Positions 4,764 through 64,000 of a DNA stretch of 64,000 bases are shown here, piece by piece. Both the position numbers and the translations under genes were made by a program. The notes beneath the pieces were generated by a model that did no database searches, was not told the DNA's origin, and saw only the letters and a program-made list of their open reading frames with translations. Numbering within the stretch: position 1 is the first letter of the stretch; every line of letters begins with the position of its first letter. The DNA is from Aureococcus anophagefferens (taxonomy: Eukaryota > Sar > Pelagophyceae > Pelagomonadales > Pelagomonadaceae): contig NW_008705593.1 in the NCBI RefSeq assembly GCF_000186865.1, positions 334,048-398,047 on the forward strand. Reading direction: 5' to 3'.

Positions 4764-6406
4764 ATGGGTTTTCACAGGCCAAAGATGGCAAAACTCCGGC
4801 TGGCATGCACCTTGCTAGCGTGCGCCAAAGGATTAACCCCGCAGCGCATGCCAGCAGCGCCGAAAACGGCGCAAAAGGTCGCGACCGTCGAGGCGCTCGG
4901 CGAGGCCGTCGCGGTCGCGGCTCCGGACGCCTTCGACTGGTTCGACCACTGGTACCCCGTGAATGTCGTCGACAGCATGGACCCGTCGCGCCCCCACAAG
5001 GTGCAGCTGCTGGGCCTGAACCTCGTGCTCTGGAACGACGGCGCGACCGTCGGCGGCGAGAAGGCCGCGGGGTCGTGGCGCGCGTTCGAGGACTCGTGCC
5101 CGCACCGGCGGGGCCCGCTGAGCGAGGGCCGCGTCGAGGACGACGGGACGCTGCTGTGTTCCTACCACGGCTGGCGCTACGACGGCTCCGGCGCGTGCTC
5201 GGACCTGCCGTACTCGCCGGAGAGCAAGCGGGAGCGGCACCAGTGCTCGGCGTCGTGCGCGTCGTTCCCCACCCAGGTCGCCGACGGCATGGTCTGGGTC
5301 TTTCCCAACAGGGCGATCTCCGCCATCGAGGCGCTGCTCAAGCCCGCGCCTCTCGTCAGCGAGCTGCACGACCCGCGGCCGGGCGAGGACCGCGACTGGC
5401 AGGTGAAGATCCCGGCCGGCGTCCGCGACTTCCCCTGCGGCTGGGACACGATGGTCGAGAACACCCTGGACCCGGCCCACTTCTGCGCCGCGCACCACGG
5501 CACGCTCGGCGACCGCTACAGCGACCCGCGGGCCTACACCTTCAAGACCACGAAGAAGGTGTCGCGCGACGGCGGCTTCGAGCTCGACGGCGACATGGGC
5601 TCGCTGGAGTCAGCGTCGAGCGACGGGAGTGTTTTTTCGAGTGAATGTCGCCTGAAGATGTGAAGAAATCCGACCCCGTCGCACTTGGTAGGCTGGAGTT
5701 CGTGCCGCCGTGCCTCGTCAAGTACCGGCCCAACTACGGCGCCATGCCCTTTGAAGGCGCGCTGGTGCTGGCGACGTACTGCGTGCCCACGGCGCCGGGG
5801 AAGGTCCGGCCGCTCGCGACGGTGCTGCGCGATCGCGCGGCGCCCTTCGGGGAGACGCTCGCCGAGCGCGCGCTGGCCGTCTTCATGGGGCCGACGTGGT
5901 TTCCGGGGCTGGTGCCGAAGTGGTTCGGCCACATCGCGTCGTCCGTCGTGCTGCACCAGGACGCCGCGCTCCTCTACGAGCAGTACCGGAATCTGATCGA
6001 CGAGGGCTACGAGCCGACGAAGCCCGGCTCGAAATCCTTCAACCAGGTCTGCTACATGCCCAACGACGTCGACCGGGGCGTCACGGCCTACCGGCGCTGG
6101 CTCCAGGTCCACGCGGGCGGCGGCGTCCCCTGGGCCTGCGACGACGCGCTGCCGCCGCGGGGCTCCGAGGACATCTTCGACATGTGGGACGCCCACACGA
6201 GCCACTGCTCCCATTGCCTGGACGCCTACCGCAACTTCGGGATCGCGCGCGACGTCGCCGCGGGCGCGGTCGTCGTCGCCGCGCTCCTCCCGGACGCCGC
6301 GCCTCGGTTGCCCGTGGGCCTCGCCGCCGCGGCCCTCGCGCTCGGCATCGACCGGTTCATGGGCCTCTTCCGGCGCTACGAGTTCTCCCACCATGATAAT
6401 GATTAG
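4764..6406 (+). CDS. Rieske non-haem iron oxygenase, pheophorbide a oxygenase-like
   Basis: Two exons, 4764-5602 and 5692-6406, give 517 residues. A hydrophobic leader (from 4764, or from the ATG at 4785) suggests plastid targeting. The Rieske 2Fe-2S motif is CPH...CSYHGW at about residues 112-134. The mononuclear iron site is DPAHFCAAHH at about 238-247. Near the C-terminus (about 450) HCSHC supplies the CxxC typical of the PaO/Tic55/CAO group, followed by two hydrophobic stretches that fit a membrane anchor. Family members oxidise chlorophyll breakdown products or act at the plastid envelope; the substrate cannot be told from sequence. The intron is an introner insertion: without splicing the protein would stop 20 codons past the junction. 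Confidence 0.85.
5603..5691 (+). mobile_element. Introner (short family), copy A: intron in the Rieske oxygenase gene
   Basis: An 81-bp element (5611-5691) is flanked by a perfect 8-bp direct repeat GCTGGAGT (5603-5610 and 5692-5699). It begins CAGCGTCGAGCGAC and ends CTTGGTAG. Treating the first target copy plus element as an 89-nt intron (GC donor, AG acceptor) restores the frame as GSL|EFVPP. A GT at 5609 gives an alternative in-frame donor that adds two residues. Closely related to the element at 31485-31573. Confidence 0.85.
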
Positions 6407-6708
6407 GCTTCGGCAGCATGTCCCGCCGGCGCAGGGAGGAATCACTTGGAGAAGGGAGGCCTAAGGTAAGGGAACGAGGAACGAGAGCACGATCGGAAGA
6501 ACCAGCCGCCTCCTCTCTCTAGCGCTGTAGGCGACCAGGGCCGCGGAGAAGAGATCCCGGGACTCGCGGGCACTGCAGCGTCTTCGGAGCACTTTGGGCA
6601 AAGGCGTGGGCGGCGCGTCAGAGGTCCCCCGCAAGGCGTGAGCGGCGGTGTCGAGGTCCCTTTTGAAGTCATTTTAGCCGGCGGGATATGTCAAACGCCG
6701 CTAAAACT
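6407..6708. other. Intergenic, convergent 3' ends
   Basis: 302 bp between the Rieske stop and the stop of the GT8-like gene on the other strand. It should hold both 3' UTRs. I see no repeat and no convincing coding segment. Confidence 0.5.
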
Positions 6709-7863
6709 TCACATTGTGTGGTGCTCGCGGCGCGCGGTGCAGCGGGCGTCGCAGGCCGACGGGCACGCGAGCGACGCGCTCCGTCCCGCCGCGTCGACCC
6801 TGGCACACCGGCGGTCGGGGGCCTTGGCGACGTGCTTGCACGTGCCCCCCCCCACCGCGCCCGCGACCGCCGCGGCGGTCCAGGAGTCGTCGTCGACGCA
6901 CGCGCACCGCTCGTGCGGGTGTTGGAGGTGGCTGAAGGCGCGGGCGTGGCCGTAGCAGAGCTCACGCATGCACAGGTCCGCGAAGCCCTTCTGCAGGTTC
7001 CACACGCAGGGGTCGACCTGCGCGGGCCGCCACCGCGCCTGCGCGTCCGCGGCCGCGTCGCTCGCGCGGCTGCGGTAGAAGAACCAGTGGAAGAAGCCCT
7101 GCATGCGCGCCTGGAACCGGCGGGGGTTGTTGTTCGGGCCCCAGCCCTCGCCGTTCCAGCCCGTGCGGGCGTCGACGCGCGCCGTCTCGAGCGCCGCGTG
7201 GAGCCGGCGCCGGAGGAGCTCGCTCGGCGGGACGGCGAGGAACGCGCCGTTGACGGGCACCTCGGGCCCGCGCGTCGTGAGGACGCGGCCCTCGGCGACG
7301 CAGTCGAAGAGCGGGCCAAAGTCCGCGGTGTCCTCGGGGTCGTAGTCCAGGTCCATGACGATCATCGCGTCGTACTCGCCGTAGCCCATCGGCTCGAGCT
7401 TCAGGAACTCCCGGGCCCCGCAGCAACCGCCGCTCTCGACCTTGATGCCCGCGCTCAGCTTCGGCGGCACGACGTGTTCGCTGTAGCGGATTTCGATGCC
7501 GAGATCTTCGAGCGCGGCGATCGTTGCGTTGGCCACGGGCACGCGCTGTCGCTCGGGGACCGGGAGGACGACGACGCGGTCCGCGCCGTTGCGCCGGGCC
7601 ACGCGCGCGACCTTGGCCTCGTGCTCCAGGAGGCCCGGGCCCTTGCGCGACGTGAGCGGGAGCTTGACGTGGGCGTCGAAGACGGAGACGAAGGCCCGGC
7701 GCCGCGCCGTGCCGTTGACGCAGGCGCCCAGGTCCTGGCAGTCGACGCCTTCGTCGAAGGCGAGGCATCTCGTTTTCCGCGTCGCCAGCCGAAACGCGAC
7801 CGTCTCCGCGTCTTCGGCGCCCCGTCCGACGCACAACAGGGCGCAGAGCGCCCACGCCCGCAT
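6709..7863 (-). CDS. Secreted or Golgi GT8-like glycosyltransferase
   Basis: 384 residues from the ATG at 7863, which opens a signal-peptide-like leader (MRAWALCALLCVGRGA). The centre has GCCGAREFLKLEPMGYGEYD followed by MIVMDLDYDPED, whose DLD matches the DxD metal/nucleotide-sugar motif, then VLTTRGPEVPVNGAF. The C-terminal third is rich in cysteines, expected to form disulfides in the lumen. The GCCGA(R/W)E(F/L)LKL block and the DxD region are shared with the gene at 29063-30614, so the two are distant paralogues of one nucleotide-sugar transferase group. Donor and acceptor sugars are unknown. Single exon. Confidence 0.6.
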   Translation of the reverse strand: MRAWALCALLCVGRGAEDAETVAFRLATRKTRCLAFDEGVDCQDLGACVNGTARRRAFVSVFDAHVKLPLTSRKGPGLLEHEAKVARVARRNGADRVVVLPVPERQRVPVANATIAALEDLGIEIRYSEHVVPPKLSAGIKVESGGCCGAREFLKLEPMGYGEYDAMIVMDLDYDPEDTADFGPLFDCVAEGRVLTTRGPEVPVNGAFLAVPPSELLRRRLHAALETARVDARTGWNGEGWGPNNNPRRFQARMQGFFHWFFYRSRASDAAADAQARWRPAQVDPCVWNLQKGFADLCMRELCYGHARAFSHLQHPHERCACVDDDSWTAAAVAGAVGGGTCKHVAKAPDRRCARVDAAGRSASLACPSACDARCTARREHHTM

Positions 7864-8104
7864 CTCCTTCGGAACGTTTTCAACTGAGATCGGACCACGT
7901 CGTCGCGCCTGCAAAGGAGTCGCCAGGCAAAGTGCCCGCCGCGCGAGAGGAGTCACGCAGCGAGCGACGATTTTGTCGTAAGGCGCACGTCAGGAGCGCG
8001 CACCAGGGGACCTCATCAGGAGCCTGAGCAGCCCCTGATCGAATCTCCCGGCACTCTCCCGGAATAATATTGACTTTCTTCCTGCAACGTCGAATGCTCC
8101 ATCA

Positions 8105-8965: not shown

Positions 8966-8977
8966 AAAACGGGCGCG

Positions 8978-10136: not shown

Positions 10137-10160
10137 GGTGCGAATGCTGTCAGGTACGAT

Positions 10161-10310
10161 GGATGGATGCTGTGCTTGGTCTTTAGCGGTTGCTTGGCGA
10201 CGGCGACGACGGATGGATGCTGTGCTTGGTCTTTAGCGGTTGCTTGGCGACGGCGACGACGGATGGATGCTGTGCTTGGTCTTTAGCGGTTGCTTGGCGA
10301 CGGCGACGAC
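10161..10310. repeat. Minisatellite: 50-bp unit, three perfect copies
   Basis: Three identical head-to-tail 50-bp units (10161-10210, 10211-10260, 10261-10310), each starting GGATGGATGCTGTGC and ending GGCGACGGCGACGAC. The array occupies the shared region upstream of the CIA30 gene (minus) and the RRM gene (plus). Perfect identity means recent expansion or strong homogenisation. Confidence 0.95.
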
Positions 10311-10468
10311 GGTAATGTCTTCGGACGCTCTCGATGACGCGTTCACGTCGCGGTATGCGCGGCCAATCAGCGTCGCAGAGATGTCGCAGCATCATTGCGT
10401 CATCATCGACTCGAGGCTCGAGCGAATTGAGGTTGCGCATGGACTCGTCGTCAGCGCGCAGCCGTACT

Positions 10469-11404: not shown

Positions 11405-12748
11405 TTAGCTGGGGAGCTTCGCGAGGTTCGCCGCGGCGTCGGCGATGACGTCGAGGGAGCGGACGAAGGCGAAGCGGAGGTACTTCGCCCCGTGCGTCGC
11501 CTTGGACGCGCCGAGGTAGAAGTTGTCGCCGGGGACGCAGGCGACCTTGAAGTCGCGCGTCATCTTCAGCGCCGCGTCCGTCGGCGAGAGGCCCGCGAGC
11601 GCGGCGACGCCGCCGAAGGTCACGAAGAGGTAGTAGGAGCCCGCGGGCGTCGGCCCGAGGCCGAAGCCCGCGCGCGCGAGCGCCGCGGCCAGCGCGTCGC
11701 GCTTCGCCTCGTACTCGCCGGCGATCGCCGCGAGGACCGTCTCGTCCGTCTCGGGATGGTCGAGGAGCGCGGCGACGCCGTGCTGCAGCGGCGTCGGGCA
11801 GCAGGCGACGAGCTGGTCGTGGACGGCGCGGATTTTGGCCGTGCGGGCCGCGGACGCGACGACCCAGCCGATGCGCCAGCCCGTGGCCTTGGCGGTCTTG
11901 GAGATGGAGTTGACGACGACGGCGCGGCCCGCGCAGTCCGGCCGCGCGGCGAGCGTCGCGTAGGGCCCGCCGCGGAAGCACATGTGCTCGTAGATCTCGT
12001 CGGTGACGACGACGACGTCGTGCTTCGCGCAGAGCCGCGCGATGGCATCGCGCTCGGCGTCGGAGAAGCGGTGGCCCGTGGGATTGTGCGGATCGTTGAA
12101 GAGCAGGAGCTTCGCGCCCGCGAGCGATGCGTCGAGCTGGCTCTCGTCGAAGCCCCAGGCGTCCTTCCCGGCCGTGAGCGTCACGGCGCGGGGCGTGAGC
12201 CCGAAGATGGCGAGCTGGCTCGGGTAGAGCTCGTGGAAGGGCTCGAAGAACGCGACGACGTCGCCGGGCTCCGTCAGCGCGCGGATCGTCGCCGCGAAGC
12301 CCTCCGTCGCGCCCATGACCACCGTGACGTTCGCGTCGGCGTCGGCGGCGACGGTCGGGTACCAGCGCTTGTAGTAGGCCTCGATGGCGCGGCGCAGGGC
12401 CGGCGCGCCGTAGGGGAACGAGTACTGGTTCAGCGCGTCCTTGCGCTTGCCCGCGGGCACGAGCGCCTCCAGCCTCTTCGCCATGGCCGCCGCGGCGGCC
12501 TCCGAGTCGCCGGCGAGCAGCGCGCCGGCGGCCGCGCAGACCATGGCCGTCGGCGGCGCCTCGTTGGGGAAGCCCTGGCTCAGGTTGACGGCGCCGGACT
12601 GCATGGCGATGCGCGTCATGAGGCGGATCGTCGACTCCTTGACCGGGCCCGGCGCCGCGTCGTCGGTGCGGAGCTGTTTTACACGTTGGTAGAGCGGATA
12701 GGCGGCGAGGCCGCAGGCGAACCCAAAGGCTGCGGAGCGAGCGTCCAT
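11405..12748 (-). CDS. Class I/II aminotransferase (kynurenine/methionine aminotransferase-like)
   Basis: 447 residues. The start is the ATG at 12748; the frame is open a few codons further, but only with non-ATG codons. A PLP fold-type I aminotransferase: NLSQGFPNE and NQYSFPYGAPALRRAI near the N-terminus, NDPHNPTG for cofactor/substrate contact, DEIYEHM, the Schiff-base lysine in SISKTAKATGWRIGW, and the C-terminal substrate arginine in YLRFAF. The pattern is closest to kynurenine-oxoglutarate transaminase and related enzymes. A hydrophobic stretch at residues ~5-18 may be an anchor or leader. Single exon. Confidence 0.85.
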   Translation of the reverse strand: MDARSAAFGFACGLAAYPLYQRVKQLRTDDAAPGPVKESTIRLMTRIAMQSGAVNLSQGFPNEAPPTAMVCAAAGALLAGDSEAAAAAMAKRLEALVPAGKRKDALNQYSFPYGAPALRRAIEAYYKRWYPTVAADADANVTVVMGATEGFAATIRALTEPGDVVAFFEPFHELYPSQLAIFGLTPRAVTLTAGKDAWGFDESQLDASLAGAKLLLFNDPHNPTGHRFSDAERDAIARLCAKHDVVVVTDEIYEHMCFRGGPYATLAARPDCAGRAVVVNSISKTAKATGWRIGWVVASAARTAKIRAVHDQLVACCPTPLQHGVAALLDHPETDETVLAAIAGEYEAKRDALAAALARAGFGLGPTPAGSYYLFVTFGGVAALAGLSPTDAALKMTRDFKVACVPGDNFYLGASKATHGAKYLRFAFVRSLDVIADAAANLAKLPS

Positions 12749-12904
12749 GTTTTGCCACAAGAATCGTCAATGAAGGGGAAAGCAGCCGGCGTTGATGGTG
12801 GGCTGCTCTCAAAAGCCGACTCGGAAACAGGGTGAGGCGCGCGTCGAAGGAGTGGCCTGCGTCCTCGAGGGCCGTCGCGTCGCGCGGATTCGAGGCCCGA
12901 GACC

Positions 12905-13369: not shown

Positions 13370-13385
13370 GGCCGCGTGTAAGGAG

Positions 13386-14811: not shown

Positions 14812-16225
14812 ATGGCGCGAATCGGGCTGCCTTCCAAGGCGTGCTGCTTGCTCCTTTCGCTGCTGGGTGGTGTCCCAGCGGCTACCCTGTCGGACATCGC
14901 GCGCGCGACGCGGACGCGGGTGAGCGACCGCCTCAGCGGCTCGGATGCCGCCGAAATCTCGGCGAAGATCAACGCAGCCCTGCGGGCTGCGAAGACGCCG
15001 CTGCGAGACTGCGCGACGCTCTCGCTCGGCGACGCGGTGGCGCTCGTTAACCTGCTCGCCGACGCGGCGGATCCGGACATCGGCGCGCTCTACGGCGCCG
15101 GCGACGGCCGCGGCCGCCGCGGCCGCGCGCGGCGGCCGCCGCCGTCGTCGCGCGACGGATTCGTCGCCGCGCGCGACGCCGCGTGCGCGGAGGCGCTGCT
15201 CCTGTGGACGCACCACCTCTCGGAGGACGCGCGCGCGGAGCTGCGACCCGTCGTCCGGCTGCCGACGCTGCCCGTCTTCGACGAAGAGATCGCCCGCGCG
15301 CTCGACCCCGACGCCGAGGACGCGTACCGCAAGGGCTTCACATGCCAAACGGGTGCGCGCCGGCGTCCCGTGGCCGTGATGACCTTTGAAGAGTTTCACG
15401 GGAGGAGTCGATGACATACACGGTAGGCCACGGCATCGTCGACGCGACGCGGACCGGCTCGGACCACCTGCTACCACACTGGCCCGCGGAGGTCCACTAC
15501 ACGGGCGTCGGCCACGGCCAGCGTCCTGCGGTCGTGACAAATTCGAGAGCTTTTGACTGGGAAATCGAAGAAAAATTTTCACCGACGAGCTTGTAGGCCA
15601 CGGCGCCTACCCGTTCTGGGCCGGGAGCGAGGGCGCCAAGACGTCGGCGCCGATCGAGGTCTGGTACAGCGAGGCCCTCGCGAGCGAGAAATTTTATCAC
15701 GCGGCGTGCCATCTCGACGAGGTGAAAGGCCCCTCCGACCCCGCGCCCTGCTTCCACCTCATGACGGGCACGGTGCACCCCCACGGCCCCCCGCGCGACG
15801 AGGCCGCGCCGCGCGCCGCCAAGGCCTACCTCTACAGCGCGGACTCGGATTTCTGCTGCAAGAGCTCGGGATCGCCCGAGGACCTCAGCGCGCCGAAGAG
15901 CGACTTCATGGACAAGATGACCCTGGACGCGAACCGGACGAGCGTCACGACGGAGTTCTACGACGGGCCGGCGCGGTGGTTCGCCATGAAGCTCGACAAG
16001 GGCGAGCTCGTCTCCGACTTCTGGTACGTGACGACGCCCGACGGACGGCCCCTCCAGCAGGGCGAGGGCGGCACGGGACCCGCTTCGAAGACGGGCCGCG
16101 GCAACCTCGTCTACCACGACTACAACGTCACGTCCTGGGGCGCGCCCGAGGCCCCGTTCGACGCCGCCATGTTCGACGTCCCCGCCGCGTGCCGGGCGAC
16201 GGAGAAGCGCTGCGCGTTTCCCTAA
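14812..16225 (+). CDS. Secreted protein of a local paralogue family, two introners
   Basis: Exons 14812-15352, 15427-15510 and 15597-16225 give 417 residues. A signal peptide follows the start (ACCLLLSLLGGVPAA). No known enzyme motif is seen. It is a paralogue of the gene at 30765-32032: both have an ISAKINAAL/VSSALNAAL-like helix, a short NLLADAADPDIGALYG/DVLAAVRDADLQDIYG block, a CAEALLLWTHHL/CNDAAFLFAHHL block, and a tryptophan-rich second half (IEVWYSEA versus VWEWYRDSE). The second half has several cysteines and a likely N-glycosylation site. Splicing both introners joins FTCQTG|HGIVDA and HYTGVG|HGAYPFW. The function is unknown. Confidence 0.7.
15353..15426 (+). mobile_element. Introner (short family), copy C1
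   Basis: 74-nt intron with GT donor and AG acceptor. The element (15361-15426) begins CGGCGTCCCGTGGCCGTGA, aligning closely with the start of copy C2 in the same gene, and ends CACGGTAG. The flanking octamers (GTGCGCGC and GCCACGGC) no longer match, so the target duplication is either eroded or obscured by local rearrangement. Confidence 0.65.
15511..15596 (+). mobile_element. Introner (short family), copy C2
   Basis: A 78-bp element (15519-15596) lies between perfect 8-bp repeats GCCACGGC (15511-15518 and 15597-15604). It begins CAGCGTCCTGCGG and ends CGAGCTTGTAG. The 86-nt intron starts with GC supplied by the target copy. Removing it restores a clean reading frame (VG|HGAYPFW). It is AT-richer than the neighbouring exons. 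Confidence 0.85.
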
Positions 16226-22462: not shown

Positions 22463-25400
22463 TCACGCGGCCTCGAGGGCGGCCTCGAGGGCGGGCGCGG
22501 GCGCGGCGGCGCCCGGCGCGCCCGGCGGCGGCATGCCCCGGAAGCGCTTGCGGCGCTCGCCGAGGAACTCGACGCGGGGCGCGCCGTCGTCGTCCAGGGG
22601 CGGCTCGGCGGCGGAGCCGTCCGGCGGCGCGCGCGGCGCCGCGCCCGGCCGCGCGTCGACGATGGCCTCGACGATGTCGTCGGCCTCGCCGCGGAAGACG
22701 GCGCGCAGCCGTTCGACCATGGCGTCGAAGGACTGGGGCGGCGGCCCGCCGCCGTCGCAGGCGCCGAGCACCGCCGCGGCGAACGCGTCGAACGTCTCCG
22801 CGTCGTCCGCGTAGCGGTCCCAGACCTGGGCAGCAAAAGGGTGATTCAACGTCGCCTTAATCTTGAGTGTTCCGCGCGCGCGCGTTCCAAAAAAAGCATC
22901 CATGCTTCGAGACCGCTCCGAGAGATGATCGCTCGTCCAAAAATCAGCCGAAACGAGTGGAAACCAGCCGAGATATGAGCCTCCAAAGTTGGGAATGTCG
23001 CACTCTTTTGCTGCCCGGTCCCAGACCTCGTAGACGAGCGCGCGCATGCGCGCGTAGTCCGTGCGCACGGCGGCGCGCCGGCGCTTCGTCCGCAGCGGGC
23101 CCGCGCCGAGGAGCTCGGCGACGGACTCGGGCGCGCGGCCCGCGTCCGCGACCTCGTCGAGCGATCGGCCCGTCGCGGCCGCCATGGCGCCCGCGGCCGC
23201 GCGGAGCGACGGCCGCCGCCGCACGGCGGCGTCGCGGGCCGCCCGCGCCGCCGCGCGGCTCGCGAGGGACGCGACGAGGGCGTCGAGCGTCGCGCGCTTG
23301 GCGCCCGTGTCGTCCGCGGCGGCGTCGCCGGCGCCGCGCGCGACGTCGAGCGCGTCGTCGTCGTCGTCGTCGTCGCTGGCGTCGCCGTCGCCGGGCGCGG
23401 GGGCCGGCGCGTGGTTCGAGGCGTCGCCGTCGCTGTCGCTGTAGGCGTCGAGGTCGCTCGACTCGCCCGTGCCGCCGTGGAAGAAGCGCGGGTCGTCGGC
23501 GGCGCGCGGCGCCGCGCGGGGCCCGACGCCGTAGCGGGCCGCGAGGAGCTCGCGCTGGCGCCGGAGGAGCTCCGCGGCGTCCGGCCGCGGCGGGGGGGCG
23601 GCGGCCGGCGGCGGCGGCGGCGGCGGCGCGGGCGGCGCCGCGGGCCGCGCGGCGGCCGGCGGCGGCGGCGCCGCGCCCGGCGGCGCCGCGCACGTGAGCG
23701 CCGCGATGGTGTTGGCCGCGGCGACGGCGGACATGGCCGGCGCGCCGACGTTGTTGGCCGGCGGCGGCGCGCCGCCCGCGAGCGGCGCCGCGCGCGGCGC
23801 CAGCGCCGCGATCGTCCTCGCCGCGGCGATGACGCGCGACGCCGCGGCGACGACCTCGCGGACGCCGGCGTCGGCGGCCGGCGCGCCCGCGGCCTGGAGC
23901 CGCGCGAGCGTGCCGTTGTAGTCGACCCAGGCCCCGCGCCACGCGTCGTGCGCGGCCGCCGGGTCGACGAAGGGCGGCGCGGGCCCGGCGAGCTGCCGCT
24001 GCCGCTCGAGGAGCTGCCGCGTGTGCTCCTGCTGGAGCTGGTAGGCCTGCAGCTGCCGGTACTGGGCCGCGCGCGCCGCGTCCGCGGCCGGCGGCGGCGC
24101 CGCGGCGCGCGGCGGCGGCGGCGGCGCCGCGGCCGGCGGCGCCGCGGCCGGCGGCGCCGCGGCCGGCGGCGCCGCGGCCGGCGCGAAGGCGAGGAGGTCG
24201 AGGCGCGGCGCGGCGCCGCCGGCGCGGTCGCGCCAGGCGCGCGTGTAGTCGGACTCGCGCGGCTCCGGCGGCGGCGCCGCGGCGGCGGCCGCGCGGCGCG
24301 CGGCGGCCGCGCGGTCCGCGTCCGCGGCCGGCGGCGCGGGCGGCGCGGGGGCGGCGCCGTCGGGCGCGTCGTGGACGGGGAGGAAGTTGTCGAAGTCCTT
24401 GATGAGGTCCGGGTAGCCGTGGAGGAGCGTCGCGATGCGCCGGCTCACGTCCGCCGCGGAGAAGACCTTGCGCTTGTAGGCCTTGAGGAGCTCCACGAAG
24501 GTCGCGATGGTCCGCGGCGAGAGCTTGTGGACGCTCCGCATGCGCGCGACGTACTCCAGGGCCTCCTTGTTCGACGGCGCCTTGTGCCGCGGCGGCCGCG
24601 GCGCCGCGGCCGCGGGCGCCGCGGCCGCGGGCGCCGCGCGGGCCGGCTCCGCGGCGGGCGCCGCGGGGGCCGGCGCCGCCGGNNNNNNNNNNNNNNNNNN
24701 NNNNNNNNNNNNNNNNNNNNNNNNNNNNNNNNCGCGGCGTCGGGGCGGGGCGGCCGCGCGTCGCCGGGCGCGGGGGCCGCGCGGCGGCGCGGGCGGCGCG
24801 GGCGCGCCGTCGTCGTCGTCGTCGGCGACGGCGACGGCGGCGGCGCGGCCGTCGTCGCCGACGTGGACGCGGAGCAGGAGCTTGGGCTGGTGGGGCTCCG
24901 GCGGCGGCGGCGGCGGCGCGTCGTCCGCGGCGCTGCGGCGCTCGGCCCGGGCGTCGCGGGTCTCGGGCGGCGGCGGCCGCGGCGGCGCGGGCGCGCCGAG
25001 CGTCGACCGGTAGAGCTCGAGCTGGTACTCCTCCTCCTGGACGCGGCGGCGGTACTCGTTGGTCCGCTTGCGGTCCAGCGTGCCCTTGCCCGTCGTGAAG
25101 GAGCAGGCCTCGGGCCGGAGCGACGCGAGCACGCTCTCCGCGCGCGCGACGCGCTCGAGGACGTGCGGCGGGAGCTCGGCGGCGTAGATGACGGAGCCGC
25201 CGCGGAGCCGCGCGGCCTCGCCGCCGGGCACGCGCCACGTCTTGCCGTGCGCGAGCGGGGCCCCGCCCCGGCGCGGCGCGTCGTCGGACCGCGGCGGCTC
25301 CGCGGGCGCGCGCTGCGCGCGCGGCGCGGCGGCGCGCGGCGCCGCGGGCGCCGCGGCGCCGCGGGGCCGCGGCGCGGGCCGCGGCGCGGCGCGCTTCGTC

Positions 25401-29062: not shown

Positions 29063-30614
29063 TTACGACTCCGGGAGGTGGTCGACGTCGATGGGGATGT
29101 AGCCGGCCTCGGAGAACTTCGTGCACATGCCGCGGCGCTGCGCCGTCTTCGGGTTGTCGTACTTTCTCGCGTCGTAGACGCCGCGCTCGCGCTCGAACTC
29201 CTCGCGGATGGCGAACCAGAGCTTGTGGAACTCGTTGCAGATCTTGCAGTAGTAGCAGCTCGTCGACGTGCCGTGGCAGATCCACGGCTTCTGGCAGATC
29301 GTGAAGTGGACGACCTTGACGGCCGCGACGTCCGTCAGGCGGCAGTCGTCGCAGTCGCCTTTCGCGATGTCGCCCGTGTAGGCGCCGGCGCCGGGCACCG
29401 TGCCGTCGCGGCACTCGCCCTTGCCGAAGCCGCCCGCGGACCGCGGGTTCGACGCCATGTTGTTGTAGACGCAGCCCCGGACCTCGCGGCCGAGCCGGGG
29501 CCGCACGTGGCGGAAGTAGTAGGGCAGCAGGCCCTGGATCGTCATGCCGCCGTAGAAGGACCCCGCGCGCGTGCCGCCCCAGCCGCCGCGGAAGTCGCCC
29601 TTCCTGACGATGGCGACCATCTCCTCGAAGACGTCCAGGTTCGGCCGGGCGACGAAGAAGCCGCCCTGGACGGGCGGGTTCGCGCCCCAGGGCCTCTGGG
29701 CCATGTTCCAGTCGAAAGTGTACTGGCCGTGGACGCCGGCGATCGGTGGCAGGCTCGCGTCGACGTTCTTCAGGTTCCGGTCGTTCGCGGCGACGGCCGC
29801 GGCGCTGAGCGTCGCCGCGCCCTCGACGGGTTCGTCGTCGAAGAGCTCGTCGAAGTTCTGGAGCACGAGCGAGTCCATGTCGAGGTGGACGACGCGGTGG
29901 TACTCCGTGAGGGACCACGCGTAGAGCTTGAGCAGCTCCCACGCGCCGCAGCAGCCGTTCGAGGAAATCCGCGACCGCAAAAAGTCGCCCTCGATGTCCT
30001 CGACCTCGACCGGCAACGGCTTCTCGAGCACGCGGAACCCGACGCGCCGCAGCTTGCTCCGCCCGGCCTCGGAGACCTGCGGCGCCACGAAGGCGACCAG
30101 AGCCGCGTCGTAGCGCGAGCCGTTGCGGTGGCGCGCTGTGCCCGAGCACGGCCGCGCCGTCGATGCCGTTCCAGTTGCCGCCGTCGGAGGTGACGGAGAT
30201 GGCGTAGGCGATGGTCTTCTTCTTGCCGCCGCTCGCCGCGCCGCGGAGCGCCGGCGCGCGCGGCGGCGGCGGCGGCGGCGGTTTTCGCGGCGGCGGCGGC
30301 GGCGGCGGGGGCGGCGGCGGCGCGCGCGGCGGCGGCGCGCCGGCGGGCTCGTTGCAGACCGTCGCCTTCCAGCACTTGCCGCTCGCCGTGTGGCACTTGA
30401 GGCCGTCCTCCTTGCAATAGTAGCCGCTGTATCCCGGCTGCGGCTCGCCGCGCGGCAGCTCGAGCTCCAGGACCGTCGCGTCGCTCCCGCCGGCAGCGCT
30501 CGCCGGCTGGTGCGAGCTCAGCGCCCAGAGCTGGATCGCGGCGACGGCGGCCAGAAAGCATAGTAGGATGGTGCGTGGACGCACGCCGCTTGGTTTGTGT
30601 CGCGAGGCGCCCAT
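29063..30614 (-). CDS. Type II membrane GT8-like glycosyltransferase (apparent frameshift)
   Basis: The start is the ATG at 30614, giving MGASRHKPSGVRPRTILLCF, a cytosolic tail plus signal anchor (about residues 15-32). A cysteine-containing stem and a poly-Pro linker (about residues 85-125) follow. The catalytic domain has KKKTIAYAISVTSDGGNW, NGCCGAWELLKL, HLDMDSLVLQNFDELF (DxD) and PPVQGGFFVARP. The frame changes near 30125-30138, within a GCGCGC run, and the domain continues in another frame as SRYDAALVAFVAPQ. One missing or two extra bases would explain it, likely a sequence error. It is related to the gene at 6709-7863. Its stop lies 4 bp from that of the hydrolase-like gene. Confidence 0.62.
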
Positions 30615-30764
30615 AGCGTCCCGCACCCTCAACAGGTCAAATCACTGTGCAAAGCGCTGCCATTGCACGCAAAATTGCAAAACTCCACAGGGAGCGGCGA
30701 GCAGGTCAAAATTTGCCCCTTAAAAAGTCTTCAAAGTAGAACGGTGCCGTGCCCATTCGATGTC

Positions 30765-32032
30765 ATGGCGAGCTTCTTGGGATCCATTTTCCTGCTCCTG
30801 CTCGTCGCTGCGGAGAGCCGCGAGTTGACGGATTCGGACCTCGCGCGTGCGCACCGGCCGAAGCCGCTGGGTCTGCGCTTCGCGCTGGAACGCGACGTCT
30901 CGAGCGCCTTAAATGCAGCCCTTTCAACAGCTTGGACCATCCCCACGAAGCCCTGCGCGTCATTCCACCTCGACGAGTTGCACAACATTATAGATGTCCT
31001 CGCGGCCGTGCGCGACGCTGACCTCCAAGACATCTACGGCGCGAGCGGCGACCGCCGGTCGCTGCCGGACTGGCTGGCGACGTCCGCGTCGCGCCGCGGG
31101 AAACGGGCCGCGGACGGCGCCGCCCCGTCGGACGCCCTGCGCGCGGCGCGCTGCAACGACGCCGCATTCCTCTTCGCCCATCATCTCGGCGCCGAGGCGC
31201 GCCGCGAGGCCGCGGCGGTGCTGGCCGCGGCGCCGCTGGTGAGCGAGCTCCCGCCCGCTTCCGGCGACGCGTACGGCGCGCTCGAGCTCGCGGGGTCCAT
31301 GAGCTGCCGCGCGTGCCACTACGTCGACGATTTGCCGGCGAACGCGTCGCACCCCGTCGCGACGCCCGACAACTACAACACGACCATGTACATGTACGCC
31401 GAGGCGCACGGCTCTTCCATCGCGGACGTCGACTACCGCTACCCGACCCGGCAGGCGCTCTACACGACGACCTGGGCCGAGAAGGCGCGCTCCAGCGTCG
31501 AGCGACAGAAGTGTCGTTTCGTGTGAATTTTGCCCGAAGATGTGAAGAAATCCGACCCCGTCGCACTCGGTAGGCACATTCCCGGGACTGCTCGCTGCTC
31601 TTCGAGAGCGACGGCTCGGTCTGGGAGTGGTACCGCGACAGCGAGATCTGCGCCAAGCTCATGGACGGCGCGCCCGTCTTCCCGCCGGACATGGCGCGCG
31701 GCGCGCGGATGACGGAGCTCGTCGCCGAGGCGCCGCTCGTCGTCCTCAACCCGTTCACGAACGCGTCGATGCCGCCGTGCAGGCTCTACTGCGCGCCGGA
31801 CGACGGGCCCTGCTACTGCGAGAGTCTTGTGGAACCGTTCCAGCCCGTGCTCCACACGCACGCGTCCCGCAACCTCTCCGGCTCGCGGTCCTACTACGGG
31901 CCCTACGTCCCGACGCCCGGCGACGTCGCGCCCATCGCCAGGCCCGCCTACTGCCCGGGAGCGGACGCGCCGGCGAAGTTCCCCAACGACACCACGGGCC
32001 TCGAGTGCTCCTGTAACCGGTGCTGGGTTTAG
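30765..32032 (+). CDS. Secreted cysteine-rich protein, paralogue of the 14.8-kb gene, one introner
   Basis: Exons 30765-31484 and 31574-32032 give 392 residues. The signal peptide is MASFLGSIFLLLLVAAESRE. A CRACHYVDD motif, the aromatic VWEWYRDSE, and a C-terminal half with about ten cysteines (LYCAPDDGPCYC, LECSCNRCW) suggest a disulfide-stabilised extracellular or vacuolar protein. No enzyme family is recognised. It shares block order with the gene at 14812-16225, but its introner sits at a different site (WAEK|AHSRD), so the insertions happened separately. Confidence 0.7.
31485..31573 (+). mobile_element. Introner (short family), copy B
   Basis: Same 81-bp length as copy A and ~88% identical to it: starts CAGCGTCGAGCGAC and ends GCACTCGGTAG. 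The flanking octamers GCGCGCTC and GCACATTC agree at five of eight positions, and all three differences are transitions. The 89-nt GC-AG intron restores frame WAEK|AHSRDCSLLF. The unspliced frame meets a stop at 31524-31526. Confidence 0.82.
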
Positions 32033-53458: not shown

Positions 53459-53551
53459 GCCACCGAGGCCCCGCCGCGAGTCGCGACGGTCCAGCCTCTC
53501 CGAGGAGCAGCGGCGCACGTTTCTTAGTTTCCAAGTTTATGGGGGTCCTGG

Positions 53552-55274: not shown

Positions 55275-57830
55275 ATGGGGCGGGGCGGCAGCGACGGCCA
55301 CGGCCACGGGGGCGGCGGCCACGCGCCGCGGGTGACGGTGAACCAGCGGGACGGGGCCATGTTCACCCTCGAGGGCGTCAAGGGGAAGACGATCGAGGCG
55401 GTGATGCAGGAGTGCGCCGACGCCGACAAGAAGGACGTCAAGGACATGTTCCGCGGCATGAAGGGCCAGTGCCGGATGCCGACGCCCATGGAGGTGGTGC
55501 GGAGCTTCGACATGTTGCACAACCCCGAGGGCGTCCAGAAGCGCTGCTGGGACGTGCTCATCGTCCTGCTCGTGCTCGCGGTGTGCATCACGCTGCCCCT
55601 CAAGGTCACCGTCGAGTTCTGGCACCCGGACAAGGAGTACTACTGGTACTTCGAGAAACCCATGGACGCCATCTTCTGGGCCGACATGGTCGTCAACTTC
55701 ACCGCGAGCTTCGTCGACCACCACGGACACGTGTGCCACGACCGGCGCCACATCGTCGAGCACTACGTTTACGGGAACCCCTTCAAGGACAACACGGGCT
55801 GGTTCTGGGTCGACCTGTTCGGCAACATTCCCTTCGAGGAGTTCTGGACGGGAGCAGACAAGCGCCACCGGAAGACGGCCAAGGTCATCAAGCTCGCGAA
55901 GCTCCCGAAGCTTTTGCGCATCGGCAAGCTCAAGAAGTATTTAGGCCACTACGTGAACTTCGCCATGTTCATCCAGCACACGTTCATGACCCTCTTCTTC
56001 CTCCACTGCGTCGCGTGCTGGTACATCGGGCTCTACTACAAGCACATCACCTGCGAGAAGTACTACCCGGACGTCCCCGCGGGGAACCTCAACGTCGACT
56101 CGCACGGAAACCGCGCGTGGAAGCACAACTGGGACGACCACGCCTGGTACGACCACTACTGCTCGCCGGGCCACCGGCGCCTGGCGGGCGGCGGCTGCAC
56201 GGACGACTCCGGCGGGTGCTACGACGACGACGGCCACCGGCGCCTCGCGGGCGACCCCGCGTGCTACGACGACCACGCCGACGACTACCACGCGGACGAC
56301 TACCACGACGACCACGCGGACGACTACCACGCGGACGACGACCACCGCCGCCTGAGCGGGGGCATCGAGGGCGACCCGAACTGCGTCGAGCTGAGCGTGG
56401 CCTACATCGAGGCCATCGGGAGCGTCGTGTCGATGATCGTCGGCGGCCTGCCGACCGTCGACGGCGTCAACTACAACGAGGTGATGATCACGGGCGGCGT
56501 CGGCGACTACTGGCTCCGCGTGCTCGCCGTCACGGTCGGCACGGTGCTCTTCTGGACCATGCAGGCGGACCTCGTCGTCATCCTGCTCAACAGCTCGAAC
56601 GCGTACACGTCGCACCGTTCTCGCATCGACCGCGCGTCGCACGAGCTCAACTACTTCGGCGTGCCCCACCACATCACGGAGAAGGTCAAGAGCGCCATGG
56701 AGTACCAGTGGCGCGCCATGATGCCGAGCCGGTGCACGGTCTTCAAGGACGAGTCGCTGAGCCCGCACCTCCGGCAGGAGATCGTCATGCACTTCCACGG
56801 CCGCGAGCTGAGGAACACGGCGCTCTTCGCGGGCTGCTCCAACGGCTGCGTCGCCGCGGCCGCGCTGAAGCTGAATTCGATCGTCGTGCGGTCCTTCGAC
56901 TACATCATCCGCCAGGGCGAGGTCGGCCGCGAGCTCTTCCTGCTGTCGCGCGGCAAGGCGGCCGTGTCGTCGAACGACGTCGTCGTGGCCCTGGTCGAGG
57001 AGGGCAACTTCTTCGGCGAGACAGCTTTAGTGTCGAAGACGTCGCCCTACCGCACGGTCGACGTCGTCGCCCTCGTCTGGTGCGAGCTCCAGATGCTCAG
57101 CCGCGACGACTTCCGCGAGCTCTGCCACGACTACCCGGCCGTGCTCGCGAACGCGGAGATGATGATGACCATGCTCGAGCAGGAGCCGGCCATGTGCGAC
57201 GTGCTCTGGTCCTACTACCTGCGCAAGAAGAACGACATCCTCATGGAGTCCATCGCGGCCGCGCTCGGCACGGACGAATTGGGCGCGAAGGCGCACGCGC
57301 ACCACACGCCCGGCGGCTTCGAGCCGCCCAAGCCGGCCAAGGCCGGCGCCGTCGCGCCGGACTCGCCCCACGGCCACGGCGACACGGGCTTCAAGCAGAA
57401 GCAGCTCCAGGCCGTCGACGCGGCGACGTACAAGCAGAAGACGCAGGAGCTCTACGAGAACGTCAAGAACGGCACGCTCCGCGGCGCGGCGCTCAAGGAG
57501 ATGATCGCCCAGAGCGGCGCGACCAAGTCCAAGACGGCGTCGACGCTCGACCCGACGCCCGAGCACGCGCCGCCCGCGGCCGCGGGCCCGCCGCCCGCGG
57601 GGGCCGTCGCGGGCTCGCTCGCCAACTCCATGGACCACACGATCCCCGAGACGTCCGCGACGACCGACGAGGAGCTCCAGGTCCTCCCGGCGAACGACGC
57701 GCAATCCTACCCCCGCGACGTCGAGGACCTCCTCACCGAGGTCGTCGAGGAGGAGGGCAAGGACAGCGCCGAGACGAACGCGCGCGCGAGCCGCATCCGG
57801 GCGTCCTTCCGCCATAGCGGCTGCCTGTGA
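55275..57830 (+). CDS. Six-TM cyclic-nucleotide-binding-domain channel, atypical pore
   Basis: 851 residues from the ATG at 55275. S1 is at ~VLIVLLVLAVCITLPL, S2/S3 around AIFWADMVVNFTASFV and WVDLFGNIPFEEF, and a Lys-rich S4-like segment contains KVIKLAKLPKLLRIGKLKK. S5 contains FLHCVACWYIGLYY. Between S5 and S6 (about residues 285-365) lies a long loop full of His and Asp (YHADDYHDDHADDYHADDDH). No GYG/GFG filter is visible; the pore region reads AIGSVVSMIVGGLPTV. A C-linker and CNBD follow (RQGEVGRELFLLSRGKAAV, EEGNFFGETALV, about 535-610), then a disordered tail. Ion selectivity is uncertain. Confidence 0.75.
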   Translation: MGRGGSDGHGHGGGGHAPRVTVNQRDGAMFTLEGVKGKTIEAVMQECADADKKDVKDMFRGMKGQCRMPTPMEVVRSFDMLHNPEGVQKRCWDVLIVLLVLAVCITLPLKVTVEFWHPDKEYYWYFEKPMDAIFWADMVVNFTASFVDHHGHVCHDRRHIVEHYVYGNPFKDNTGWFWVDLFGNIPFEEFWTGADKRHRKTAKVIKLAKLPKLLRIGKLKKYLGHYVNFAMFIQHTFMTLFFLHCVACWYIGLYYKHITCEKYYPDVPAGNLNVDSHGNRAWKHNWDDHAWYDHYCSPGHRRLAGGGCTDDSGGCYDDDGHRRLAGDPACYDDHADDYHADDYHDDHADDYHADDDHRRLSGGIEGDPNCVELSVAYIEAIGSVVSMIVGGLPTVDGVNYNEVMITGGVGDYWLRVLAVTVGTVLFWTMQADLVVILLNSSNAYTSHRSRIDRASHELNYFGVPHHITEKVKSAMEYQWRAMMPSRCTVFKDESLSPHLRQEIVMHFHGRELRNTALFAGCSNGCVAAAALKLNSIVVRSFDYIIRQGEVGRELFLLSRGKAAVSSNDVVVALVEEGNFFGETALVSKTSPYRTVDVVALVWCELQMLSRDDFRELCHDYPAVLANAEMMMTMLEQEPAMCDVLWSYYLRKKNDILMESIAAALGTDELGAKAHAHHTPGGFEPPKPAKAGAVAPDSPHGHGDTGFKQKQLQAVDAATYKQKTQELYENVKNGTLRGAALKEMIAQSGATKSKTASTLDPTPEHAPPAAAGPPPAGAVAGSLANSMDHTIPETSATTDEELQVLPANDAQSYPRDVEDLLTEVVEEEGKDSAETNARASRIRASFRHSGCL

Positions 57831-59393: not shown

Positions 59394-59424
<31 letters not shown>

Positions 59425-60343: not shown

Positions 60344-60439
60344 GCGACCCCCTGTGTGCCCCCCGCCCCCCTCTTTTCTTTCGCCCCCGGCCGCGACGCC
60401 TCCGTCGCCCTAAGTGCCACTTTTGCTGCCGCCCCGCCG

Positions 60440-61690
60440 TTACGACGCGCCCTCCCGGATCATGGCCTCGACGTGGTCCGCGAGGATGCGCTTGCGCTCG
60501 CCGTCGATGGCGTGCTCCGCGCAGACCGCGTCGAGGAACGCGACGATGGCGTCGGGCGCGACGCCGAACTCGTGCATGGCGTGGACGATGCCGCCGAGCT
60601 GGGACCAGAGCGCGTCCGCCGCCGCGGCCTTGCCGTCGTCCGCGGCGCCGTAGAAGAGCGCGGCGAAGAGGCCCGGGCTGCAGCCCGGGTCGTCGCCGGC
60701 GTCCGGGTCGTCGCCCGGCGCCGCCCGGTGCGCGTTCTGCTTGGACACGCAGAGCGCGAGCGCCTCGCGCCAGAAGAGCGCGTCGCCCCAGACGGGGTGC
60801 GTCTGGATCGCGGACTTGAGGTACTCGCGCCGCGCGGCGGGCGCGTCGCCGCCGCCGGTCCGCGACCGGTAGAAGGACTGGGCGAGCATCATGGACACGA
60901 GGATGGAGTCGACGTCCCGCAGCCGCATGCACCGGTCGAGCGCCGTCAGCAGCAAACCGGCGAGGAACGGGTAGGCCGCGCCGACGTCGACCATGCGCGT
61001 CCGCTGGCGGTTCAGCGCCTCGACGAAGCGCCGCGCGCCGCTCGGCGCCTGCAGGTGCTCCGCGAGCTCCGTCGTGCACGCGTTCAGCACCTCGAGCTCG
61101 AACGCGCGCGCCGTGCCGCCCGCCGGCGCCGCCTCGCCGCCGCCGTCGCGCGCGACGAGGCGGAAGAGCGTGGCCACGAGCGCGTCGACGCGCCGCCGCG
61201 TCGCCGCCTCCGCCGCCGCGTCCGCGGGGGCCTCCACCGGCTTCGGCCCGCCGTCGTCGCCCGCGGCGTCCGCGGCCGCCCAGCGGCCGGACCACGTCTC
61301 GTTGGGCTCGAAGAGGGCGCAGGACGCGCGCGGCGCCGCGTCCGACGACGGGATCTCGACGACGACGACGCCGCGATGTTCCTCCTCGTCGCCGCGGCGC
61401 CGCTCGGCGTCGACGGCCTCGCGCGCGACGGCCGCGACGCGCTCGGACACGAGCACGACGCCGCCGCGCGCGACGAGGCGCCCGAAGGCCGCGGTCACGG
61501 CGTCCCCGGCCGCGCCCTCGTCGACGCGCTCCCAGTTGCAGCCGCGCGCCTCGCGCTTCGCCCAGCCGGCCAGGAGGAAGAGGCCCACGTGCGCCTCGTC
61601 GCCCAGGAGGCTCAGGCGGAGCGCCGACTCCTGGGGGGGCTCCGCGTCGGCGTCGTCGACCGTCGCGTCGTCCTCGGCGAGCGCGGCCAT
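60440..61690 (-). CDS. SBF2-like (KIAA0513-type) domain protein
   Basis: 416 residues from the ATG at 61690. The N-terminal half is acidic with no known domain. From ~residue 215 the helices CMRLRDVDSILVSMMLAQSF, REYLKSAIQTHPVWGDALFW and REALALCVSKQN fit the SBF2-like helical domain seen in KIAA0513 and myotubularin-related MTMR5/13 proteins. The C-terminal part (FGVAPDAIVAFLDAVCAEHA) is helical. A vesicle-trafficking or GEF-associated role is possible, but the family call is by pattern only. Single exon. Confidence 0.5.
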   Translation of the reverse strand: MAALAEDDATVDDADAEPPQESALRLSLLGDEAHVGLFLLAGWAKREARGCNWERVDEGAAGDAVTAAFGRLVARGGVVLVSERVAAVAREAVDAERRRGDEEEHRGVVVVEIPSSDAAPRASCALFEPNETWSGRWAAADAAGDDGGPKPVEAPADAAAEAATRRRVDALVATLFRLVARDGGGEAAPAGGTARAFELEVLNACTTELAEHLQAPSGARRFVEALNRQRTRMVDVGAAYPFLAGLLLTALDRCMRLRDVDSILVSMMLAQSFYRSRTGGGDAPAARREYLKSAIQTHPVWGDALFWREALALCVSKQNAHRAAPGDDPDAGDDPGCSPGLFAALFYGAADDGKAAAADALWSQLGGIVHAMHEFGVAPDAIVAFLDAVCAEHAIDGERKRILADHVEAMIREGAS

Positions 61691-62490
61691 GGTTTTGGGT
61701 GCTTGTGGCAAGTGTCGGGCGTCGGTGGCGCTGGCCTTGGGCTCACTCAAACACCCGAGGCGCGCACATCACTGCGGCAAATGCCGCAGAGAGATGCGCA
61801 GCGTGTGGGGGGGTCTTTGCGCCGCCCGGGCGCGACGCAGTTGCGCCTGGGCGCTACGCAGTAGCGCCCGGGAAAAGGAACGCTTGACCTAGCCCAATAC
61901 GAACGGCCGTACCGCGCTTCGCGACTCCAGTCCGACGAGCACGCAGCCCACCGTTTCGTAAAGAGTCGGCTCGTGACGCGCCGCGACGTCGAGCCTCTCC
62001 AGCTGTGTCGCCCAGGTTCTTTAGAGTCAAGGGCGAGCTGGTTTTCCTTCTTCGGCAGCATGGCCTTTTTTATCTTGATGTACTTGCGGAGCTCGTTGAA
62101 CGAATAGAGGCTGTTTGGCACGTCTCGCTTTTGCTCGTCCACCGTGACAGACTCGGATCTATGCAGGCGCCTGGGACGTCGACAGCCTCCTGCGCTACAT
62201 CGAGATCGGCTATGCGCGACTGGAAGAAGCGCGCGTCCGCGAAGCGCGGCAGCCGCTACGGCATGAAGCTCTAAGGCGCGGCCTCTCTTCGCGCGCGTCG
62301 GTCTCGAATCCGCCTCACAACCAGCAGGGGCGGCCGCGGCGAAGGACGCGCGGGGTCATCGACGGGCCGGTGACGCATCGACGAGTCGGAGCGTACGCGT
62401 GACGCAGTCTCTCTCGGACCAGCCCGGCTCGCCCAGATCGACGCACCAGACGCTCCTCGTCCTAACGACGACACACGCGAAACACACAAG
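61691..62490. other. 800-bp region with gene-like fragments only
   Basis: It contains a plus-strand stretch LFYLDVLAELVERIEAVWHV near 62060 and, in another frame, AWDVDSLLRYIEIGYARLEE near 62170. The latter is faintly like the C-terminal end of TPR/O-GlcNAc-transferase-type proteins. No start, splice or full domain supports a gene, so these may be relics. The direct repeat GCGCC(C/T)GGGCG(C/A)TACGCAGT near 61835-61870 is also visible. Confidence 0.35.
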
Positions 62491-62916
62491 TTACCCCAGC
62501 TCGAAGCCGGAGAGGAACTGGACCGCGAGCGTCGTCGCGACGGCGACGCAGGCGCCCATGAAGTTGATGGAGAAGGCGAAGGCGGCGCGGTCGTTGGCGA
62601 CGTCCGTCGGCAGGCCGTAGATCTCGTCCTCGGAGCGCCGGCCCACGGTGAGGCCGCCGACGGCCGCGCCCGCGCTCAGGAGCGCCTGCACGACGCTCGG
62701 CGCGGGGCACGTCGTCGCCCAGAGGCCGATCATGACGCAGACGAGCCAGCAGCCGGACCGCGGCATCCAGATGGACCGCACGGACGTGAGTAGGAACGTG
62801 TCGCAGTAGGGCGCCCGCCCCCGCGCCGTGCCGTCGGCCCCGGCCGGCGCGTCGCAGTCCGTCGCGGCGAAGAAGCAGTGGTGCGCGTCGTTGGGCGCTG
62901 GCGCCGCGGGCGCCAT
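62491..62916 (-). CDS. Small membrane protein (hypothetical)
   Basis: 141 residues from the ATG at 62916. Two or three hydrophobic segments: GCWLVCVMIGLWATT, VVQALLSAGAAVGGLTVG and FAFSINFMGACVAVATTLAV. Three cysteines lie in the N-terminal part. No family recognised. The composition is typical of neighbouring genes and the frame has a clear ATG and stop, so it is probably real. It shares a 206-bp divergent region with the right-edge gene. Confidence 0.55.
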   Translation of the reverse strand: MAPAAPAPNDAHHCFFAATDCDAPAGADGTARGRAPYCDTFLLTSVRSIWMPRSGCWLVCVMIGLWATTCPAPSVVQALLSAGAAVGGLTVGRRSEDEIYGLPTDVANDRAAFAFSINFMGACVAVATTLAVQFLSGFELG

Positions 62917-63122
62917 GATGTGCCGCAGCGCTGCGGCTGCTGCGAGATGCGGTTCTCGGCGGCGCGGTGCTACTCGGAGGCGCCGTCCATCAAGCTCTTG
63001 ATCAAAAAAACTCTTGCGGCAAAATTAAAGTTGCTTTGGCGAGCATGTAAATGGTGCCTCGTTGCACTCCTAGTATCTACGCGCCTCGCAGCGCTAGCTA
63101 TAGGGAGAGCGTCTGGGCAGCT

Positions 63123-64000
63123 ATGCACCTCCTCGTGACGGTCAAGTGCGGGCAGCGCGAGAGCCGGTTCCGCATCCCCTGCGGCAACGGGCAGAAGACG
63201 TTCAAGTGGCTGGGCCTCGTGAGCGCGGCGCGCTACAGCAGCGAGAGCCCCAAGGGGTCGCTGCGCATGCGCGAGTCGCGGCAGGCGCAGGCCGCGGGCA
63301 CGGCGCTGATCCCGAGCAACATCACGACGAGCGACACGTCCTTCTTCCACCCCGAGGCGCTCCTCGGCGAGCAGCTCGAGGACGGCGCCGAGGTGTGCGT
63401 CGCGCTCGCGCCGCGCGTCGCCGTCGACGCCGCCGGCCACCCCAAAACCTCCCGCTGGAGCACCATCGCCTTCGAGCTCAGCGACCCGCGCAAGCCCTTC
63501 CGGGAGCAGGCCATGCGCGACGAGTACAGCGCCCAGGAGGCGAAGCGCACGGCCCTCGAGGCCATGGAGGCCGACAAGCGGCGCGGCACGATGGCGCGGA
63601 AAGGGTCGCGGCTCCGCGAGGTCATCAAGAGCCAGCTCCCGGACCGCAACGCCGTCCACGAGGCCATGCACGAGGACTGGTTCGCCATGGGCAAGCACCG
63701 CGTCCTCGAGGCCTTGGTGGCCGACAAGCAGGAGCAGCAGAAGGTCAAGGCCGTCTTCACGGCGCACTACAGGGCAGCACAAGAGAGCGAAATTCCCAAC
63801 TTCAAAGGCTCCGATCTCGGCCGTTTTCCACTCGTTTCGGCTGATTTTTGGACGGACGATCATCTCTCGGAACGATCTCGAAGCGTGGAGGTTTTTCTCG
63901 TAACGCGCGCGCGCGGAACACGCACGTTAAAGCGACGTTGAATCACCCTTGTGCTGCCCAGGGGCACTACGTCCAGCTCGACGAGCTCTTCAAGACCTAC
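63123..64000 (+). CDS. Unrecognised gene running off the right edge (3' partial), one introner
   Basis: The ATG at 63123 is preferred; the frame is open from an ATG at 63051. Exon 1 ends at 63761, and exon 2 starts at 63962 and continues to the window end. The start MHLLVTVKCGQRESRFRIPC and GNGQKTFKWLGLVSAARY suggest a small ubiquitin-like or strand-rich N-terminal domain (tentative). LEDGAEVCVALAPRV and long charged helices (QEAKRTALEAMEADKRRGTM) follow. Splicing out the introner joins VFT|GHYVQLDELFKTY; without it the frame stops at 63939-63941. No family assigned. Confidence 0.6.
63762..63961 (+). mobile_element. Introner (long, TIR-bearing family), copy 2
   Basis: A 192-bp element (63770-63961) flanked by GCGCACTA and GGGCACTA (7 of 8 match). 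Ends are CAGGGCAGCACAAG and CTTGTGCTGCCCAG, a near-perfect inverted repeat. The GC donor comes from the target copy and the AG acceptor from the element. The internal sequence aligns along its whole length with copy 1 (for example GTTTCGGCTGATTTTTGGAC). Confidence 0.9.

Follow-up and report, generated by a model that had tools for sequence, protein, structure and literature searches.

The stretch of DNA analysed here (the window) covers 64,000 nucleotides of the Aureococcus anophagefferens genome (C33:334048-398047 in a 49.05-Mb assembly of 86 contigs). Six copies of short transposon-like elements, each predicted to be spliced out as an intron, were located in it: A, B, C1 and C2 of a short family, and copies 1 and 2 of a long family. 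In all six, the intron opens with G followed by C or T (hereafter G[CT]), and the element opens with CNG eight bases further on and closes with (T/C)AG. Intron A (5603-5691, forward strand) consists of the octamer GCTGGAGT (5603-5610), which provides a GC donor, and an 81-bp element (5611-5691) ending in TAG, and is followed by GCTGGAGT again at 5692-5699. Intron C2 (15511-15596, forward) is formed by GCCACGGC and a 78-bp element (15519-15596), with GCCACGGC repeated at 15597-15604. The intron of long copy 1 lies on the reverse strand (22826-23026), where GTCTGGGA at 23019-23026 precedes a 193-bp element with the terminal inverted repeat (TIR) CCGGGCAGC..GCTGCCCAG and recurs at 22818-22825. 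In that of long copy 2 (63762-63961, forward), GCGCACTA is joined to a 192-bp element with TIR CAGGGCAGCACAAG..CTTGTGCTGCCCAG, and the second octamer is GGGCACTA (63962-63969). The octamer-pair scan scores these pairs at 8/8 in A, C2 and copy 1 and at 7/8 in copy 2. Intron B (31485-31573, forward), located by similarity to A, comprises GCGCGCTC and an 81-bp element, and its second octamer GCACATTC (31574-31581) matches the first at 5/8 positions. The eroded intron C1 (15353-15426, forward), located through the family's start motif, comprises GTGCGCGC and a 66-bp element, and is followed by GCCACGGC (15427-15434), a match of just 3/8.

These scores (8, 8, 8, 7, 5 and 3 for A, C2, copy 1, copy 2, B and C1) agree with the initial annotation, which had called the octamers perfect in A, C2 and copy 1, 7 of 8 in copy 2 and eroded in B and C1. 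The same annotation had described eight copies with one geometry. This stands for the six copies above, but two others, D and E, for which no coordinates had been given, were not recovered by scans or profiles. Octamer scans at 7-8/8, scans at 4/8 or better with coding flanks, and short-family profile searches brought up no other convincing copy within the window. A 7/8 candidate at 55735-55944 was dropped, as its “element” itself appears by eye to be coding.

Intron A splits a Rieske/pheophorbide a oxygenase gene (4764-6406, forward) that has an ATG and a stop, and whose spliced protein contains Rieske and PaO domains above cut-off. This protein is identical to the homologue P0001 at 505 of 513 positions and aligns to it gap-free throughout, although P0001 may itself stem from intron-A-free DNA or cDNA. 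Against P0002 it is identical at 368 of 513 positions, and none of the 16 gap positions falls at the intron A junction. When C1 and C2 are removed from their gene (gene C), both junctions are gap-free against P0086, and P0087, P0089 and P0091 concur. A further homologue, P0088, is 96% identical to the gene C product over its first part, diverges past the C1 position and ends in RPRPASCGRDKFESF, which is the exact reading of the window's C2 intron up to its first stop. The close relative encoding P0088 therefore appears to carry C2, and probably C1 as well. The genes carrying C1/C2 (14800-16230) and B (30570-32030), both on the forward strand, resemble distant paralogues (28% identity) with short introners at differing positions. 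The initial annotation also held that frames are restored in every case; the spliced reading is indeed open in five of five gene models tried, although openness says little in GC-rich DNA.

Across the whole genome, long-family copies were classed by strict end patterns, each copy being read with its acceptor at the right. A at both the second and the second-last base occurs in 1009 copies (516 + 493), and C or G at the second base with A at the second-last in 192 (89 + 103); copies with A at the left and C or G at the right lie outside these counts. T..A ends occur at five loci, each found on both strands, three of which have 8/8 octamers, whereas the other two reach 8/8 only with one octamer shifted by one base. 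AG at the element's end belonged to the search pattern, and the alternative A..T ends gave no copy genome-wide. As a control, the end patterns were also read backwards across the genome, and they returned zero in every case, both for this family and for the 203-bp family described below.

A table of 46 long copies was assembled from the strict-ended copies in the window and in a 200-kb sample (20 evenly spaced 10-kb stretches on contigs C1-C4, 66% GC), one copy in L010, 20 on contig C1 in list order, and 14 of 15 fetched copies of the C/G class. It excludes the five T..A loci and the copy L071, which has GTCGCTGC twice (by eye) and fits the rule. The upstream octamer opens with G[CT] in 46/46 (23 GC and 23 GT), compared with 19% of sense-coding dinucleotides here, and the two octamers match at 8/8 positions in 38 copies, 7/8 in six and 6/8 in two. 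Positions 3-8 of the octamer show no strong consensus, and 28/46 have C as the final exon base. GC outnumbers GT 3.7 to 1 in sense-coding DNA, whereas the two are present 1:1 among the donors, and GT is therefore favoured, though not required.

Whether the reading frame is open across the junctions proved uninformative (of the 46 copies, 45 are open in sense, 44 in antisense and 45 when frame-shifted), because nearly every frame is open in this GC-rich genome. It was replaced by a test of GC content by codon position, for which one of the 46 copies is too short. In 44 of the other 45, including all 16 copies with reversed interior, both sides carry a coding signal that lies on the predicted strand and stays in one frame once the intron is taken out. 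Intron phases 0, 1 and 2 are represented 18, 10 and 12 times among 40 confident copies. No copy of the 45 is intergenic; with a coding share of 0.83 for the 264 kb of sample plus window, from a rough model, the chance of this under random insertion and retention is 0.0002 by the same model. Weighing against this result, four decayed or partial long copies were roughly inspected, and the coding model calls one flank noncoding in two of them (L029 and L027).

Old or trimmed long copies with altered ends are present at L023 8715-8910, which keeps the octamer pair GCGTCGAC/GCATCGAC and the AG acceptor, and at L029 7612-7810, which keeps GCCACCGA twice and the AG acceptor. Shortened long-like elements of 176 and 80 bp lie between perfect octamer pairs at L023 minus 5377-5560 and L027 minus 7219-7306, respectively. 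These suggest that internal deletion derivatives became introns too.

The short family (elements of ~66-81 bp) behaves in the same way. A query holding copy A has at least 41 matches in the genome, the window itself being one, with scoring confined to the best 40 candidates. In nine A-type copies (two in the window, and L002-L008), the octamer that immediately precedes the start of the family opens with G[CT] in 9/9 and the octamers match at 8/8 in eight, B having 5/8. The coding strand agrees with the direction of the element in 9/9, and the frame is the same in 8/9. No similarity linking this family to the long or the 203-bp family was seen.

An open scan for perfect octamer pairs around low-GC stretches of the 264 kb, in which the element's first letters were left free, brought out a third family. 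It returned 49 pairs of the type G[CT]..AG, of which 20 have coding, in-frame flanks; for the other classes, such flanks accompany 65/554 pairs with G[CT] but no AG, 24/103 with AG but no G[CT], and 359/1962 with neither. The 20 comprise seven pairs of the third family, seven strict long copies, two shortened long-like elements, introns A and C2, and two that look like chance. The third family has the TIR CTGTGTGGAAATCA; six of these seven elements measure 203-204 bp and one 184 bp, and none was seen in the window. Similarity to this family identified ten copies that are long enough: eight with octamers at 8/8, one at 7/8, and L029 at 8/8. Placement of nine of them required G[CT] and AG, and the resulting bounds are the family's ends. 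The same nine keep one frame across the intron, and the tenth, L029, misplaced there, passes in the open scan. When the coding signal is used to set the strand, four copies run in one orientation (F) and six in the other (R). Genome-wide, the ends of this family are T..A at 255 loci, with another left base at 36, the opposite of the long family. Both families have TIRs, and parts of their interiors are 64-84% similar over 50-92 bases, so that on sequence grounds the two may be related.

At least three families here thus use one rule: the short, the long (192 bp) and the 203-bp family. The elements are almost certainly introners, i.e., short non-autonomous DNA transposons that create an 8-bp target-site duplication (TSD) on insertion and are removed as spliceosomal introns. 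Geometry, duplications, coding context and sense, and frame can be read directly from the DNA; excision by the spliceosome is probable, protein-level evidence pointing to it in A, C1 and C2 only. A donor taken from the 8-bp target copy and an acceptor from the element, as initially annotated, find good support both across the genome and in protein homology, and the claim that two families share the rule holds, and was understated. Copies lacking 8-bp duplications, named in the initial annotation as the observation that would speak against the rule, did not occur among the sampled long, A-type and 203-bp copies.

The proposed sequence of events begins with a cut-and-paste transposase, perhaps hAT-like, which would insert the element and duplicate the 8-bp target. 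The upstream target copy, if it opens with GC or GT on the transcribed strand, would become the 5' splice site, and the element's own final CAG or TAG would become the 3' splice site. The spliceosome would then excise octamer plus element and leave one octamer in the mRNA; with one target copy retained, the frame is unchanged at any element length. Insertions without this layout would be lost from coding DNA, selection having presumably purged those unable to splice. The termini of one long intron (z -2.4 against shuffles) and of one 203-bp intron (z -4.5) are predicted to pair. Given this prediction and the weak donor consensus, the element may do most of the work of intron definition: its terminal repeats perhaps pair in the pre-mRNA and join the two splice sites, in which case a G[CT] from the target would suffice.

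Several observations weigh against this account. The long copy L057 (1/45) and the A-type copy L008 (1/9) failed the codon-position test, and C2 failed it with one flank setting while passing with another. TIRs are weak in the short family, where just a subterminal GCGACGGG match is visible by eye. The 24 perfect pairs of the open scan that have AG and coding flanks yet lack G[CT] also run counter to the rule; none has a family's ends, and they resemble within-coding repeats, some overlapping true copies. Finally, the genome yielded no autonomous partner with matching ends, and weak hAT matches only.

A single hAT-like superfamily of transposase (8-bp TSD, CAG or CTG ends) moving all three families is a reading whose chances fall just short of even. 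All three share the TSD length and have similar end letters, the genome has four hAT C-terminal matches barely above cut-off, one of them supported independently, and MULE and IS1595-type domains have no match in the genome. However, these hAT matches are weak, and introner ends were not seen on any transposase copy, the wider flanks of the hAT loci being outside the data; the transposase search spanned hAT, MULE and IS1595-type domains but no further superfamily with an 8-bp TSD, such as P elements. The TIRs of hAT elements start with YARNG at both ends. In the long family, the left end (CAGGG) fits this pattern, but the right end read inward (CTGGG) does not. Two loci, L014 and L015 (C1:943540 and C13:599794), are 98.6% identical over ~2.7 kb and contain a hAT-type dimerisation domain beside a tandem protein repeat. 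They are possible transposase remnants; their similarity reaches the edge of the locus, so the element ends are unplaced.

It is very improbable that the introns spread as RNA copies through reverse splicing, with no DNA transposition. A link to transcripts is conceivable, since 44/45 long copies lie in sense coding sequence, the coding fraction being about 0.83 in the rough model. Reverse splicing makes no 8-bp target duplication, however, whereas duplications are perfect in 38 of the 46 long copies, and it is further opposed by the TIRs and by interiors in both orientations relative to transcription. Ordinary old introns flanked by chance direct repeats, or transposons interrupting pseudogenes, could be entertained on account of the imperfect repeats in half of the window copies (B, C1 and copy 2), but have a negligible probability in view of near-identical copies genome-wide with matching octamers, flanks that are coding and in frame, and homologues that are gap-free at the junctions of A, C1 and C2.

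In the 46 long copies tabulated, the interior is in the window's orientation (F) in 30, a second motif having served to assign two of these, and reversed (R) in 16; 31 R were counted by eye among 100 long copies listed. While the interior takes both orientations, A is kept at both the second and the second-last base when the element is read in the direction of transcription. The two variable TIR bases agree between the ends of one copy in 36/46, against a mean of 12.8 and a maximum of 25 in 20,000 shuffles; the two ends therefore evolve together, by conversion between ends or selection for pairing, the second base excepted. On a tree of the long copies, orientation needs eight changes (bootstrap 5-8; starred branches force two), no polymorphic column is fixed between F and R, and one F copy and one R copy show no difference at any of the 29 columns compared. 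The approximately unbiased (AU) test, on the other hand, does not reject a single R clade (p 0.248), and repeated flipping of the interior is a candidate reading for which the tree gives neither proof nor exclusion.

The outermost base pairs may set the direction of splicing separately from the interior, a tentative account that is somewhat likelier to fail than to hold, in which the CTG..CAG ends of the 203-bp family work two ways and the CAG..CAG ends of the long family one way, through a single base change at either end. The symmetric ends of the 203-bp family would offer an acceptor on either strand, so that the element could become an intron whichever way it lands. An ancestor with such CTG..CAG ends would have given the one-way long family by a T-to-A change at one or the other end. 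The absence of A..T copies fits this account, because on neither strand would such copies end in an AG acceptor. For the long element, the case for selection against a T as second base is suggestive at most. An initially overwhelming signal rested on shared polymorphic columns and was discarded; with these left out, low-frequency A-to-T changes amount to 2/24 (hand count), which gives about 16 T expected among 197, and five are seen. An explanation at the RNA level, in which T pairs with and hides the acceptor A, is weakened, as just this pair is present in 255 of the 291 strict copies of the 203-bp family.

Elsewhere in the window, an aminotransferase gene (11408-12760, reverse) encodes a product that matches the NCBI entry “transferase [Aureococcus anophagefferens]” with 400 of 447 aligned positions identical, the differences lying almost only where the NCBI gene model omits or misframes pieces. 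This single protein points to A. anophagefferens, or a conspecific strain, as the probable source. A 50-bp tandem repeat is present three times at 10162-10311 (starts 10162, 10212 and 10262) in seemingly intergenic DNA, and a run of 50 N (24683-24732) falls within a very GC-rich, low-complexity gene.

Huff, Zilberman and Roy reportedly described the introners of A. anophagefferens in 2016 as non-autonomous DNA transposons, bringing one splice site with them and obtaining the other from the duplicated target. A length of ~210 bp is given as characteristic of these introners, with credit to Huff 2016 (PMC9481584), and they are said always to show direct repeats and TIRs (PMC7789003). On the strength of these statements the mechanism was already known in the species; the main rule is a rediscovery, and its novelty had been overstated in the initial annotation. 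According to Gozashti et al. 2022 (PMC9860276), Symbiodinium introners recruit splice sites in the same way with a 4-bp TSD, GC donors make up 0 to 50% per family, compared with half here, and the search method permits insertion in the opposite orientation. In an Aureococcus sp. example there (Fig. 2F), both splice sites lie on the element and the transcript gains 12 bp, whereas by the geometry seen here it gains nothing. Amoebophrya introners (PMC7789003) are similar in having border direct repeats and inverted repeats able to form a hairpin joining the exon boundaries, but have non-canonical splice sites and direct repeats of 3-5 nt instead of GC/GT-AG and 8 bp. What may be new is that the long family keeps A..A ends with its interior in both orientations, compared with the symmetric T..A ends of the 203-bp family. 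Neither this contrast nor the nearly bare G[CT] donor was met in the available parts of these three papers (PMC9860276, PMC9481584 and PMC7789003), and both may be published elsewhere.

The episodic mass gain of introns is an old puzzle, and this genome offers a strong case of introns from DNA transposons that is readable directly from sequence. Possible additions to it are the presence of three families under one rule, the contrast in end symmetry between two of these, a donor nearly bare beyond G[CT], and end bases that, unlike the interior, track transcription. They make the minimal signals for a new intron testable by single-base change. If the outermost bases do set the direction of splicing, a single base decides whether a transposon family makes introns one way or two ways.

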